The notes under the pieces were generated by a model. That model had not been told where the DNA came from. It did not search any database and saw only the letters and a program-made list of their open reading frames with translations. A stretch of 37,333 bases of DNA from Candidatus Thorarchaeota archaeon (GTDB taxonomy: Archaea; Asgardarchaeota; Thorarchaeia; Thorarchaeales; Thorarchaeaceae). Numbering within the stretch: the stretch's first letter is position 1; each line of letters opens with the position of its first letter. Where the stretch lies: positions 1 through 37,333 of the forward strand of contig DAOVDG010000005.1 of assembly GCA_030669595.1 (NCBI GenBank). Direction: 5' to 3'. Of this stretch, positions 98 through 5,669 are shown piece by piece. The position numbers and the translations under genes are program-made.

Positions 98-126
98 TTA
101 CTGTATTCGAGCGGACTGTGAGAAGG

Positions 127-1503
127 ATGACAGGAAATCTCTTCGGAACAACAGGTGTGAGAAAGGTCTACGGTACCGAGTTCAAGCTGGATATGGCAAT
201 TGGACTAGGTAAAGCTCTCGGAACATACTTGGGCAGCGGAACGGTCCTTCTCGCTCATGACGCACGAATCACAAGCCCCATGGTGGAGGATGCTCTTGCG
301 GCAGGAATAATGTCAACAGGAGTGAATGTTGTCAGAGCAGGTCTCATCCCCACTCCAACTCTGGCATTCATGACAAAGTACCACGGCTATGACACCGGCG
401 TCATGGTAACAGCGTCTCACAATCCGCCCGAGTATACGGGCTTGAAATTCTGGTCGAGGTCAAGCATGGGCTATACGCAGGCAGAGGAGGCACGCCTTGA
501 GGAGATCTACAACTCCAAGGAATTCCAGATTGCCGAATGGAACGAGCTGGGAACCGACGGGAAATTGGAAACCGCTGTCGACCGTCATATCAATGAGATT
601 CTCGCTGTCTGTGATGTAGACCTCATCAGATCAAGGGAATTCAAGATTATCATTGACCCGGGAAACGGCGCAGGTTGTGTCCTTACACCATATCTGATGA
701 GAGAGCTTGGCCGCAAGATGGTGACAATCAACGGGCAGACAGATGGCCATTTCCCAGGAAGAAGATCTGAGCCCGATGAGGAGTCGCTCGGAAACCTCGT
801 GAGCATGATCAAGAAGACCAGCGCGGACTTTGGCATTGCCCACGATGGGGATGCTGATCGCGTTGTCTTTGTGACCGAGTCCGGGGAGGTTGTAAGGGGT
901 GATAGGGTTATTGCGCTCATTGCACGCTACATTCTCAAGAGCTCCAAGAACAAGATTATCGTTACCACAGTGGACAGTTCCAGAGTCTTGGATGAGACCG
1001 TCAAAGCGGCTGGTGGAGAAACGGTTAGGACGCCAGTAGGGGATATTCAAGTGGCTATCAAGATGCGGGAAACCAATGCCGTCTTTGGTGGTGAAGCCTG
1101 TGGTGTATTCATTCATCCGGAGTTTCACGAAGCTCCCGATCCATTTCTTACATCATGTAGAGTACTCGAACTGATGGCAAAAACAAAACGCAGCTTCGGG
1201 GACTTGATGTCAGAGATTCCAGTCTATCCGCTCCTCAAGGCCAAAGTGGAATGTCCGAACAACAAGAAAGAAGCCGCCATGAAAGAGATCGCCAAGGCGC
1301 TGCCTGAGGCCATGAAGAAGACTGTAGACATTCTCACTGTTGACGGTCTTGGTGTTTTCCTCGAAGAGGGCTGGGTGCTTGTCAGGCCTTCAGGGACAGA
1401 GCCAGTCATTAGGGTGACCTGCGAGGCTCCGACCCAAGAGATTGCTGACTCAATCATGTTGGATGCAAAAGGCACTGTTGAAAACATTGTTGAGTCTTTA
1501 TGA
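127..1503 (+). CDS. glmM: Phosphohexomutase (phosphoglucosamine/phosphomannomutase family)
   Basis: An alpha-D-phosphohexomutase of about 458 residues, the usual family length, acting in the cytoplasm to interconvert hexose 6- and 1-phosphates. All four family signatures are visible in order: the phosphoserine loop TASHNPP near residue 97, the metal-binding loop DGDADR near 240, the sugar-binding loop (here GEACG instead of the common GExSG) near 325, and the phosphate-binding RPSGTEP near 420. The ATG at 127 fits the family start (MTGNLFGTTGVR); a GTG nine bases earlier is an alternative. GlcN, Man and Glc specificity cannot be separated by eye. Its position next to the bacillithiol genes suggests phosphoglucosamine mutase activity feeding UDP-GlcNAc, the BshA substrate. 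The symbol is a best guess resting on that context. Confidence 0.85.
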   Translation: MTGNLFGTTGVRKVYGTEFKLDMAIGLGKALGTYLGSGTVLLAHDARITSPMVEDALAAGIMSTGVNVVRAGLIPTPTLAFMTKYHGYDTGVMVTASHNPPEYTGLKFWSRSSMGYTQAEEARLEEIYNSKEFQIAEWNELGTDGKLETAVDRHINEILAVCDVDLIRSREFKIIIDPGNGAGCVLTPYLMRELGRKMVTINGQTDGHFPGRRSEPDEESLGNLVSMIKKTSADFGIAHDGDADRVVFVTESGEVVRGDRVIALIARYILKSSKNKIIVTTVDSSRVLDETVKAAGGETVRTPVGDIQVAIKMRETNAVFGGEACGVFIHPEFHEAPDPFLTSCRVLELMAKTKRSFGDLMSEIPVYPLLKAKVECPNNKKEAAMKEIAKALPEAMKKTVDILTVDGLGVFLEEGWVLVRPSGTEPVIRVTCEAPTQEIADSIMLDAKGTVENIVESL

Positions 1504-1579: not shown

Positions 1580-1972
1580 ATGTCTGGTGACGATGAAGAC
1601 TTCATTGTTGATGAATTTGAATGGGCTCTCAAAGATCCCACCGAAGAGAAGCTTCGAGCCCTCGGGGACGTTGTAAGCACGATTACAAAGAAACTGGTAG
1701 ATGCGATAGGAGACCTAGATAAGCGCCTGTACGATCTTGAAACAAAGCTTAACGGAATCGATTCGAAGGTCAACCAAATCGCTAGCCGCGGAGTTGCACC
1801 CCCGTCAGCAGCCTCAGCTGCCGCTTCTGCTGCCCCTGATATGGCTAGTGCCCCGATAGCCAAGGCGCCCTCAGCACGACCCCCACCAACTGGAGCTGGA
1901 GGCGGGCTCATGGGCGAGTTGAAGACCCTTCTTGCAGCTCGAAGAAGAAAAGCTGACGCTAGCAGCGAGTAG
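1580..1972 (+). CDS. Small coiled-coil protein with VASP-like actin-binding motif
   Basis: 130 residues in three parts. Residues 1-30 are acidic. Residues 31-69 form a heptad-patterned coiled coil (LDKRLYDLETKLNGIDSKV) of the kind in BRK1/HSPC300 and CCDC53, the small subunits of the WAVE and WASH complexes. Residues 72-104 are an Ala/Pro-rich linker. The C-terminal segment, residues 107-124 (GGGLMGELKTLLAARRRK), closely follows the F-actin-binding block of eukaryotic Ena/VASP proteins, which I recall as GGGGLMEEMNAMLARRRK. The match is from memory and by eye. If real, this is a cytoskeletal protein that oligomerises through the coiled coil and contacts actin through the basic tail, with the Pro-rich linker available to profilin. 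The alternative is an unrelated coiled-coil protein with a chance basic amphipathic tail. The gene model is secure because of a good ribosome binding site and start. Confidence 0.85.
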   Translation: MSGDDEDFIVDEFEWALKDPTEEKLRALGDVVSTITKKLVDAIGDLDKRLYDLETKLNGIDSKVNQIASRGVAPPSAASAAASAAPDMASAPIAKAPSARPPPTGAGGGLMGELKTLLAARRRKADASSE

Positions 1973-1990: not shown

Positions 1991-2659
1991 CTAGATTAAA
2001 CTTCGGACGCTGTTGGCAGGATAAAATGGGCCTGCATGTCCTAGAGGTGATAGACCAAAGGCTTCGGCTCGGTCACAGGCAGCTTGCACTCCACGAAGGC
2101 GGGTGCGTGCATCGTATAGATTGTGGTAAAAGCCACTCGCTTTGGACATCTGGGATTTGTGCTGCCTAAGAGCTTGCACAGAAGTATCGTAGCAGTCAGA
2201 AATATCGACCATAACGCTTGGACGCGAAAGAAGGGAGTTGATCTCCATATTGTATATGCGCTCAACCGTGTGGGCATCATCAAAGATTGTGACGTGGGAA
2301 GCCCATTCCACTGCTTCCACTACGATTTGCGCACAGAGAATGTGATTGCGGTTGTAGTCCTCAACAGAATGAGTGATTATGATCTTGGGACGGGTCCTGA
2401 GGATTGTCTGCGCAATTTCATGCGAGAGTGACCAGTCGACATCAAAATCACCGCGCATACTGGTGTGCACCTCTGCCACACCAAGCGTTTTGCAGGCTTT
2501 GTTCAGTTCAACATTGCGCTCATTATTCCCAGTGAGACATAGAACACTCACAGGAACCCCGAGCTCCACATGCCTTCTGATTGTACCGCCCGCTCCAAGA
2601 CACTCATCATCAGGATGAGCAACAACAACGAGCATGGAGGCCTCATCCGCATCACTCAT
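1991..2659 (-). CDS. bshB: PIG-L family deacetylase, bacillithiol pathway (BshB)
   Basis: A zinc-dependent LmbE/PIG-L N-deacetylase. The AHPDDE metal motif lies about 14 residues from the chosen start, and THSVEDYNRNH supplies the catalytic Asp/His region in mid-protein. The family also includes mycothiol and GPI-anchor deacetylases; the call as BshB, which removes acetyl from GlcNAc-malate to give GlcN-malate, rests on the divergent bshA-bshC next door. The frame is open to a TTG at 2689. The ATG at 2659 has a close GAGG, and a third ATG at 2635 lies just before the AHPDDE region, so the exact start is uncertain. The intergenic region up to bshA is about 110 bases and presumably carries both promoters. 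No transmembrane segment is seen; the protein should be cytoplasmic. Confidence 0.85.
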   Translation of the reverse strand: MSDADEASMLVVVAHPDDECLGAGGTIRRHVELGVPVSVLCLTGNNERNVELNKACKTLGVAEVHTSMRGDFDVDWSLSHEIAQTILRTRPKIIITHSVEDYNRNHILCAQIVVEAVEWASHVTIFDDAHTVERIYNMEINSLLSRPSVMVDISDCYDTSVQALRQHKSQMSKASGFYHNLYDARTRLRGVQAACDRAEAFGLSPLGHAGPFYPANSVRSLI

Positions 2660-2772
2660 ATCCTCGTGTTCAAGTTGGTGTCTAATCAAGCTTTGGCCCG
2701 CTGGTCAGTCGAGGACCGCTCAAACCACAAAGCCCACGGGCATAAGACGACTTTGCTGAAAAGGTGACACGC

Positions 2773-3936
2773 ATGCGCATTGGTGTGAATCTATACCCCT
2801 CGATGGGAGGATCCGGATATCTGGCAACCCGTCTTGGACAACATTTGACACATCGAGGCCATGTGATACACTTCATCACCTACGAGCGCCCGTTCTCGTT
2901 GATGTGGGAGCAAACGCGAGGGGTCCACGTGGACCTTGTCGATCGCTTTGACTACCCGTTGTTCAAGGATGTAGGACCACCATATACAATGGCATTGACA
3001 TCAAAGATAGTTAAAGTAGCCAAGGATTCCAATCTAGACCTTATTCACTCGCACTACGCAATACCACACGCGATGTCAGCTTACATGGCCCGGGAGATAT
3101 GTGGCATCCCCTACGTGGTCACTCTACATGGTTCAGATGTGCACTCACTCGGTCAGGACCCTGCCTACAGGCCAGTGGTCGAACATGTCGTTCAAAACGC
3201 CGATGCCGTGACAACAGTATCCAAGTTCCTCAAGAAGAAGATAGTCGAGGAGTTGGGGGTTACACGGGAAGTACATGTTATACCGAACTTTATCGATGTA
3301 AAGAGATTCGCACCCAAGAGCGACTTTAAACTGGTAGTTGAGAGTGGATGTGTCTCTGTAAGGAGCACAGAAGAGGCCCAAGAGATTAGTCCCGGAGAGA
3401 TAGTCCTGCTTCATGCTTCAAACTTCCGCAAGGTGAAACGGGTCGTTGAGCTGGTTGACATCATGCGGATAGTTATCGACCATCATCCGAACACCCGTCT
3501 TCTGATTGCCGGCGACGGTCCAACAAGAATAGAGGTTGAGAGACGAATAGATGCACTTGACCTCTGCAATAATGTTCATCTTCTGGGGATAAAAAGCAAC
3601 ATGCTGGAGATTATGTGCTCTGCGGATGTATTCCTGCTCAACTCGATGCTCGAAGGCATGCCACTCGTTCTCCTAGAGTCTATGTCGTGCGGTCTACCAG
3701 TGGTCACTACTCCTGCAGGAGGTATTCCAGAGCTTGTTCGACCCGGCAAGGATGGGATTGTCACCAAGGGATTCGAGCCTGAGGAGTTTGCGGATGCAGT
3801 CATCGAGCTCTTGGACAAAGAGAAAATGAGGACGCAGATGTCTGCTGCTGGCAGAAAACGAGTGGAAGAACACTTCGCAGCCAAAGCGATCGTTCCCAAG
3901 TACGAAAAAATCTTTGAGGAAGCCATTAACAAGTAG
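2773..3936 (+). CDS. bshA: N-acetyl-alpha-D-glucosaminyl L-malate synthase (BshA)
   Basis: A GT-B, GT4-family glycosyltransferase of 387 residues that transfers GlcNAc from UDP-GlcNAc to L-malate, the first step of bacillithiol synthesis. The whole N-terminal half follows bacterial BshA: IGVNLYPSMGGSG at residues 3-15, the HVIHFITYERPF stretch, the LDLIHSHYAIPHAMSAYMA block, and TLHGSDVHSLGQDP near 118. The C-terminal domain has the retaining-GT motif EGMPLVLLESMSCGLPVV near 294. These blocks are more specific than general GT4 similarity. The ATG at 2773 is preferred over the in-frame GTG at 2764 because AAAAGGTGA sits five bases before it and the product then begins MRIGV as the family does. 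It is followed after 17 bases by bshC, so the two are almost certainly co-transcribed. Confidence 0.93.
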   Translation: MRIGVNLYPSMGGSGYLATRLGQHLTHRGHVIHFITYERPFSLMWEQTRGVHVDLVDRFDYPLFKDVGPPYTMALTSKIVKVAKDSNLDLIHSHYAIPHAMSAYMAREICGIPYVVTLHGSDVHSLGQDPAYRPVVEHVVQNADAVTTVSKFLKKKIVEELGVTREVHVIPNFIDVKRFAPKSDFKLVVESGCVSVRSTEEAQEISPGEIVLLHASNFRKVKRVVELVDIMRIVIDHHPNTRLLIAGDGPTRIEVERRIDALDLCNNVHLLGIKSNMLEIMCSADVFLLNSMLEGMPLVLLESMSCGLPVVTTPAGGIPELVRPGKDGIVTKGFEPEEFADAVIELLDKEKMRTQMSAAGRKRVEEHFAAKAIVPKYEKIFEEAINK

Positions 3937-3953
3937 GAAGGTAGGAGAGCAGC

Positions 3954-5669
3954 TTGAAACCCAGTGTGACGAGTGTTTATCAGGAGTTCATCTGGAGTGG
4001 CACACAGCCAGATCTTGCAGCTGATCTTTATGGTACTCCAATCATCACGATGGGAGAGATCGTGTCAGAGTTTCCGAAGATACTTGCTGAATACAAGGAT
4101 AGACTCTGGCATACCGATGAGCGAATGAAACTGCTCCGAAAGACATTGATTGAGGCCAATCGCGGGCTTGCATGTTTAACCCCCAGTGTGGAGGAGAACA
4201 TCAAACGACTCGGCAATGGAGTTGTCGAGGCGGCTCACCAGAGTGTAGTGATGGGAGGTCCTGCCTACATTCTCAACAAGGCAATCACTGCAGAACGAAT
4301 CAGCAGTTTTGGCGTTCAGCGAGGACTCGATGTCGTTCCGGTCTTCTTTGTTGCAGATTATGATATCGTTCAATCGGAACTGACCAATATCAGAACTCCA
4401 AACATGGGACCCGAAGGCAACCTCCTGAGCCTTCCTGTGCCAAGAGGCTATGAGCACTCGCCTGTCAGCGTTCTCCCTCTGCCTGAGGCCGAATGGTACA
4501 GCGCGATTGAGGAGAGCCTTCAACATAGCTATAGACCCCTTCTCAAGCCCCTCGACAAACCTGTGCGGACACTCTTTGAAGAAAGGCTCGAACAGGCGCT
4601 GGCAATTACGCGCTGGGGATTTGTCAACTCCAAAACCCTTGGCGATTGGGCTCGGAAAATCATTGGTCGACTTCTGAATATCGAGGGGAACTTGGGTATC
4701 CCGATTATCCCGGCATCAGATGAGGTATTCCGAGACCTAATGGTTGAGGGAATGGAATTCCTCTTGGCCAAGAAGCAAAGAGATGTCTTCCTTAAGATCC
4801 ACGAGAGAGCCACAGACCTCATTGTGAAGAGCGGATTCAGACCGGGCGCGGGATCTAGAAAGCCCAATTACGTGCCATTCTACTATGAATGTCCGGAGAA
4901 AGAATGCAATAGGAGTAGGATCGAGCTATTCTACAAGGAGAAGGGCACGGAGGCTGTGTTGACAGGTAGATGCCCATCCTGCGGTCAGAATGGCGAAATC
5001 GAAACATTGGCCAAGGATCCGTTTCTTGGTGAAGTGGGACGTTACCTATCACCTAGAGTTGATTCCAGACAATTAATTGTCGACACGGTCTTGCCCATCG
5101 TTGCCCATGTGGGAGGTGGTGGTGAAACCGCATATTATGCACAGGTCATTCCCATTGCGAAAGCACTGCCTGCGCCCTTCCCCGCATTTCTGAAGTATCC
5201 GCGAGTCTACTTCAATACTCCTTGGAACGAGAGCCTTGCGGGCGTATTGAAGGAGAAAGGGCTACCAACCCTTCACAAGCCAGATATGTTCCGACTGATG
5301 GGGAAAGCTAATCGCTTCAGAAAGAAAGCTAAGCATGATGAGATGAACGAGAGTATTCAATCTCTCTCGAGTATGATACTGGAGAGTCACCAGAAATTGA
5401 ATGCATCACTCGAAGACCTGAGGAAGCAACGCAAGACCACCACCGGAGATGAACTGAAACAGCTCTTGACTGACATTCGAGATATCGAGCGATATCTGAG
5501 CTGGGTGTTTGGCCAATATGCTGAGAACAAGCTTGGCCAGGAGGTATCCTGGTCTTGGGTTGAATGGATGCTCAACTCAGGTGTTCATGATTTATTCGGA
5601 CCCTATCGCCGCGCATATGTACCGAACATGAAGAACGGCGCAACGCTCTTCATTAATTTCTCCTTGTAG
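3954..5669 (+). CDS. bshC: Putative cysteine ligase of bacillithiol synthesis (BshC) with a zinc-ribbon insert
   Basis: 571 residues, slightly longer than Bacillus BshC (about 540). BshC adds cysteine to GlcN-malate to complete bacillithiol. The N-terminal Rossmann part has the family blocks AAHQSVVMGGPAYILNKAI and VPVFFVADYD, matching AGQQAGLLTGPLYTIHKII and VPVFWVAGEDHD in B. subtilis as I remember them. A mid-protein block (LPIVAHVGGGGETAYYAQ) matches the bacterial FPTLAFVGGPGEIAYWAEL. Residues about 460-520 are coiled-coil-like, as in BshC. Unusual is CPEKEC (C313, C318) paired with CPSC (C340, C343), a zinc-ribbon-like insert in place of a short hairpin. The TTG start has TAGGAG six bases upstream. 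It ends convergently eight bases from the aminotransferase gene. Confidence 0.9.
   Translation: MKPSVTSVYQEFIWSGTQPDLAADLYGTPIITMGEIVSEFPKILAEYKDRLWHTDERMKLLRKTLIEANRGLACLTPSVEENIKRLGNGVVEAAHQSVVMGGPAYILNKAITAERISSFGVQRGLDVVPVFFVADYDIVQSELTNIRTPNMGPEGNLLSLPVPRGYEHSPVSVLPLPEAEWYSAIEESLQHSYRPLLKPLDKPVRTLFEERLEQALAITRWGFVNSKTLGDWARKIIGRLLNIEGNLGIPIIPASDEVFRDLMVEGMEFLLAKKQRDVFLKIHERATDLIVKSGFRPGAGSRKPNYVPFYYECPEKECNRSRIELFYKEKGTEAVLTGRCPSCGQNGEIETLAKDPFLGEVGRYLSPRVDSRQLIVDTVLPIVAHVGGGGETAYYAQVIPIAKALPAPFPAFLKYPRVYFNTPWNESLAGVLKEKGLPTLHKPDMFRLMGKANRFRKKAKHDEMNESIQSLSSMILESHQKLNASLEDLRKQRKTTTGDELKQLLTDIRDIERYLSWVFGQYAENKLGQEVSWSWVEWMLNSGVHDLFGPYRRAYVPNMKNGATLFINFSL

Follow-up and report, generated by a model that had tools for sequence, protein, structure and literature searches.

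Bacillithiol is a small protective thiol which, to our knowledge, is known so far from bacteria only, and we know of no major thiol established to date for the Asgard archaea, the relatives of eukaryotes. In Bacillus, Staphylococcus, Deinococcus and Bacteroidota, its synthesis runs through BshA, BshB1 and BshC—a route that shares its logic of a family 4 glycosyltransferase (GT4), an LmbE deacetylase and a cysteine ligase with the mycothiol pathway (MshA/MshB/MshC). Here, we describe a cluster of bshB, bshA and bshC genes in a window of 37,333 nucleotides (nt) from a Candidatus Thorarchaeota archaeon (contig DAOVDG010000005.1, assembly GCA_030669595.1). With a probability that we put at roughly 70%, the three genes specify an archaeal branch of bacillithiol synthesis, the product of which would be bacillithiol or a near relative.

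Two earlier surveys bear on this locus. Rawat and Maupin-Furlow (2020) listed 39 archaeal InterPro matches each for BshA and BshC, mostly in Asgard archaea (PMC7278568); going by the passage concerned, these very likely include the Thorarchaeota lineage. A 2025 survey, based on BLAST searches from Chlorobaculum tepidum proteins with an E-value limit of 1e-20, reported no archaeon with BshA, BshB and BshC (PMC12719100).

Identity of the three cluster genes

The three genes lie side by side at the positions given in the original prediction, which had read them as a complete bacillithiol gene set, and their family matches are far above chance:

1991–2689, minus strand: bshB, PIG-L/LmbE deacetylase (PF02585, 72.2 bits, cut-off 28; best NCBIfam model BshB1, below its cut-off)
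2342–2359, minus strand: bshB active-site motif DYNRNH, residues 111–116 of a frame of 232 amino acids (aa) (alignment and motif scan)
2764–3936, plus strand: bshA, GT4 N-acetylglucosamine (GlcNAc)-malate synthase (TIGR03999 over cut-off; BshA structures as best PDB matches)
3937–3953, plus strand: bshA–bshC gap of 17 nt with GGAG (from the sequence)
3954–5669, plus strand: bshC, archaeal-type homologue of the cysteine-adding enzyme, 571 aa (PF10079, TIGR03998, 4WBD match, profile–profile comparison)
4890–4982, plus strand: zinc-ribbon-like insert of BshC with four cysteines (Cys4), C313, C318, C340 and C343 (invariant in relatives)

The bshB gene, probably starting at ATG 2659, diverges from the bshA/bshC pair. 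For bshA, ATG 2773 is the likelier start, with an AAGGTGA-type site ahead of it; bshC starts with TTG, preceded by GGAG, and the short gap holding this site is consistent with co-transcription of the two genes.

BshA scored 367.6 bits against the TIGR03999 equivalog model (cut-off 273.7), and its best PDB matches were the BshA structures 2jjm, 3mbo and 5d00 (E 3e-71 to 2e-69). All seven further archaeal BshA proteins scanned, from Bathyarchaeota and Asgard families f6, f7, f8, f11 and f12, also exceeded the equivalog cut-off. A tree built with one bacterial BshA (from Bernardetia, Bacteroidota) and five general GT4 outgroups placed 22 rows in a BshA clade (support 93/92) separate from the outgroups, which form long branches. 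The protein is thus BshA rather than another glycosyltransferase, and by analogy with the bacterial enzymes its acceptor would be L-malate.

BshC is far more divergent. The 571-aa protein matched the BshC family with 63.4 bits (PF10079, gathering cut-off 27), as predicted. A single-sequence phmmer search found no relative in the PDB, and an alignment-profile search recovered Bacillus subtilis BshC (4WBD). Profile–profile comparison of archaeal BshC with bacterial and bacterial-type Asgard BshC gave a 99.6% match (E 4.6e-24) at 18% identity. Moreover, an AlphaFold model of the protein (predicted local distance difference test 92.6, predicted template-modelling score 0.93) matched 4WBD alone in the PDB at E<0.001 (E 1.2e-17, template-modelling scores 0.68/0.72), with weaker fold matches to class I aminoacyl-tRNA synthetases and MshC. 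The root-mean-square deviation from 4WBD was 13.8 over 596 columns; the domains are therefore placed differently. The archaeal segments GGPxY..NK, GGxGExxYYAQ and GQE align with bacterial GP.Y..HK, GPGE..Y and PQER, and the C-terminal region, in which GQE aligns with PQER, forms long helices in the model. Together, the sequence comparisons and the model argue for a real but very distant BshC homologue, identified at the level of the fold—a divergence that suggests why BLAST with bacterial BshC misses the archaeal form.

A further hallmark is the Cys4 insert. Its four cysteines are invariant in 34/34 Thorarchaeota and Bathyarchaeota sequences, whereas canonical BshC has no cysteines in the matching segment. 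The complete set is also found in BshC of f9, f10, f12, f19, f20 and two members of f8, and it is reduced in f5, f6, f7 and the remaining f8; the insert is probably a zinc ribbon binding a structural zinc.

BshB, finally, carries the metal motif of its family (HxDD plus H, here AHPDD and DYNRNH), and the metal residues are present in 17/17 full-length Thorarchaeota sequences.

Distribution and origin of the archaeal genes

The cluster recurs in dozens of archaeal relatives, where the original prediction had proposed to look for it. The bshB–bshA–bshC arrangement was observed in 31 of 36 Thorarchaeota-type loci; all four Bathyarchaeota loci keep the three genes within 5 kb of one another, in a different arrangement, and rearranged clusters also occur in Asgard families f7, f8 and f12. 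BshC-type genes were detected in 105/228 Asgard genomes by Pfam and in 110/226 when the archaeal profile was used at E<=1e-10, and BshA over or near its cut-off in 91/226. Co-occurrence is tight: 88 of the 91 BshA-positive genomes also have BshC (Fisher P 9.5e-32, a value that overstates the evidence, the genomes being related), and the three others are drafts, two of them with BshA at a contig end. At the family level, all eight BshA families, one of which (f24) was counted from a partial gene, fall within the 13 BshC families (chance 3e-4).

A few loci depart from this pattern. In L115–L119 (f9, f10), an archaeal-type BshC with Cys4 is present; neither bshA nor bshB turned up in the stretches retrieved, and the genomes showed no BshA. 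L076 and L081, titled Candidatus Lokiarchaeota, group with Thorarchaeota in both BshC and gene order, and their titles are probable label errors. In L083 (G035:C1:356627-358015), the BshC match starts at residue 108 of a 1240-aa frame and bshA/bshB are not upstream—a rearrangement or an assembly error.

In a BshC tree of 51 rows, of which three only are bacterial (no bacterial BshC was found on viral contigs to add), the archaeal-type sequences form one clade with 100/100 support, separate from the bacterial and bacterial-type Asgard (f11/f24) sequences. The BshA tree likewise groups f11 with Bernardetia (99/97), unlike Thorarchaeota, Bathyarchaeota and f12. The idea that tight clustering hints at transfer therefore finds no support in Thorarchaeota: their BshC, with that of Bathyarchaeota and most Asgard archaea, stands in one clade apart from bacteria. 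Given three bacterial rows, an old transfer may still be the source of archaeal-type BshC.

A bacterial-type bshC-bshB1-bshA operon does exist in Asgard f11 and f24 (L026–L034, L127–L129) and in G214. The f11 operon resembles the Thorarchaeota cluster in being archaeal and clustered, and differs in gene order and in scoring over the cut-off for both BshC (380 vs 266) and BshB1 (228 vs 182.5). The grouping of its BshA with Bernardetia indicates that it is probably a separate bacterial acquisition, and Asgard archaea hold at least two bsh systems.

Another arrangement was observed in L123–L126 (f19, f20; e.g., L124:4246-7571), where a family 2 glycosyltransferase (GT2), BshB1 and archaeal-type BshC form an operon-like run, adjoined in L124 and L126 by an amidohydrolase gene. 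BshB1 is over the cut-off in both proteins scanned (213 and 206 vs 182.5), and no BshA over threshold was found in the f19/f20 genomes. This run possibly makes a different cysteinyl-glucosamine (Cys-GlcN) thiol.

Proposed pathway and alternative explanations

Two further genes precede the cluster:

118–1503, plus strand: glmM, archaeal-type phosphoglucosamine mutase (TIGR03990; synteny)
1580–1972, plus strand: small open reading frame of 130 aa, a conserved neighbour without a family (family scans, synteny)

The phosphohexomutase noted earlier as a possible source of uridine diphosphate (UDP)-GlcNAc is indeed next door, and can be named more sharply as archaeal-type GlmM (520.6 bits, cut-off 439). 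The small frame between glmM and bshB is kept in nearly all Thorarchaeota loci; on the 3' side of the cluster lie an aminotransferase-like gene and pyrF on the opposite strand.

In the proposed route, modelled on the bacterial enzymes in its reactions, product and use, GlmM would take part in UDP-GlcNAc synthesis, BshA would join GlcNAc from UDP-GlcNAc to L-malate, BshB would strip the acetyl group from GlcNAc-malate, and BshC would condense cysteine with the free amine to yield bacillithiol (Cys-GlcN-malate) or a near relative. The cell would use this product as a low-molecular-weight thiol, and DinB-type S-transferases would take it as their cofactor. Direct support comes from the identity of BshA, the fold-level identity of BshC, the BshB metal motif, the conserved clustering and the co-occurrence of the genes.

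Partner proteins gave a mixed picture. DinB_2 proteins, the superfamily of Bst-type transferases (for the B. subtilis reference, see PMC5815605), occur in 41/47 Thorarchaeota-family genomes with up to 13 per genome, an assignment at superfamily level only, and in none of four archaeal control genomes. Strong DinB matches across the Asgard phylum go with BshC (38/42), and the copy in the window genome retains EH...HNTHH, the histidines of which fit a metal triad. Thus, among the partners whose presence had been proposed as a check, Bst-type DinB proteins were found at that level; bacilliredoxins and, in Thorarchaeota, the bacillithiol disulfide reductase YpdA were not.

Several observations weigh against a bacillithiol pathway. 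The bacilliredoxins BrxA/B and BrxC were each detected in 0/226 Asgard genomes, and no YpdA over the cut-off was found in Thorarchaeota; DinB enzymes use other thiols too. BshC lies well below its equivalog cut-off (TIGR03998, 67.1 vs 265.8), and no Pfam match to the C-terminal coiled-coil domain PF24850 (CC_BshC) was obtained in the window protein. BshA matches its family at equivalog level, and BshC and BshB match theirs at Pfam level only, which corrects the original prediction. BshB is under the NCBIfam equivalog cut-offs of both BshB1 (82.5 vs 182.5) and BshB2 (61.8 vs 195.3). By alignment and motif scan, moreover, counterparts of two active-site residues, His110 and Asp112, are missing in 17/17 full-length Thorarchaeota BshB sequences. 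In the window protein, metal His116 is retained, with Asn113 and Asn115 in their place; across Thorarchaeota, the first position is Asn (17/17) and the second Asn, or Ala in two relatives, giving DYN-x-[NA]-H vs DRHPDH in bacterial-type BshB1. The His110 counterpart is kept in Bathyarchaeota, f7, f12, f19 and f20, and was seen in the f8 alignment too. In Bacillus anthracis BshB, H110A lowers activity significantly (PMC4101496). Deacetylation is therefore the weak link of the route, yet the sequence is clearly conserved, so Thorarchaeota BshB is not decaying. Finally, the 2020 review, in the passage concerned, describes bacillithiol as undetected in archaea as of that date (PMC7278568), and our literature search on bacillithiol and BshC in Asgard or other archaea found no report of its measurement in an archaeon. 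The earlier interpretation is, overall, partly supported: three core enzyme genes are adjacent, with BshB lacking two active-site residues and BshC very distant, and 'complete' applies to the gene set, not to a proven pathway.

Some of these features lend weight to the strongest alternative, although we consider it rather unlikely: that the cluster yields some other Cys-GlcN thiol, in which malate is replaced by another aglycone, the acyl state differs or a further modification has been added. The low score and identity of BshC and the missing BshB pair would fit such a product, as would the f19/f20 run, in which BshB1 and a GT2 accompany archaeal-type BshC and BshA is absent, so that members of the ligase family occur without BshA too. 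In Thorarchaeota, however, BshA is well over the malate-synthase equivalog cut-off and co-occurs with BshC.

It is considerably less probable that the product is no thiol at all but an amino-acylated conjugate of glucosamine, with BshC adding an amino acid other than cysteine. BshC specificity is not readable from sequence, and the missing bacilliredoxins and YpdA would agree with this proposal; the DinB-type S-transferase superfamily is nevertheless enriched in the same lineages, and family f8, with archaeal-type BshC, is the one Asgard family with YpdA over the cut-off (370 vs 340).

Bacterial contamination or recent bacterial transfer is extremely improbable: although the window is a short contig (37 kb) of a metagenome-assembled genome (84.6% complete, 4.5% estimated contamination), it carries archaeal-type GlmM, an A/V-type ATPase subunit pair and a GCD14/TrmI-type gene, its closest named relatives (87–90% identical over BshC) are all Candidatus Thorarchaeota, the BshC and BshA trees place its sequences among Thorarchaeota and away from bacteria, and the gene order is identical in 31/36 Thorarchaeota loci from many assemblies. 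With the cluster also recurring in Bathyarchaeota and further Asgard families, contamination is excluded and the claimed archaeal chromosome is borne out.

Two other thiol routes were considered and rejected. The mycothiol models scored far below their cut-offs (MshA 77 vs 462, MshB 33 vs 224). The Thorarchaeota matches to gamma-glutamylcysteine ligase (PF04107) are fragments of 25–50 residues, mostly inside large frames, often of about 1150 aa, and were judged spurious.

Returning to the bacillithiol-type reading, we tentatively entertain a wider version, clearly less secure: that Asgard archaea and Bathyarchaeota have their own old Cys-GlcN thiol branch, with a Cys4-bearing BshC in about half of the sampled Asgard genomes, accompanied by BshA in some (for a bacillithiol-like product) and not in others (the GT2-BshB1-BshC operons of two families), and hence one or more undescribed thiols.

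Comparison with known systems

The conserved cluster names a specific candidate for the major thiol of Asgard archaea, open to test in cultures and with recombinant enzymes. It contradicts the 2025 statement and extends the 2020 review with a linked deacetylase, a subfamily and a distribution; none of these, nor a gene cluster or individual residues, is given in the review passage concerned. Thorarchaeota BshC bears weak fold similarity to MshC and is not that enzyme. With the bacterial bacillithiol pathway, the cluster shares the same three enzyme families, a BshA above the equivalog cut-off and a BshC with the 4WBD fold. It differs in its very divergent, Cys4-bearing BshC, in a BshB below the cut-off and without the His110/Asp112 pair, in having no BrxA/B, BrxC or YpdA alongside—and in holding all three genes together in a single cluster.

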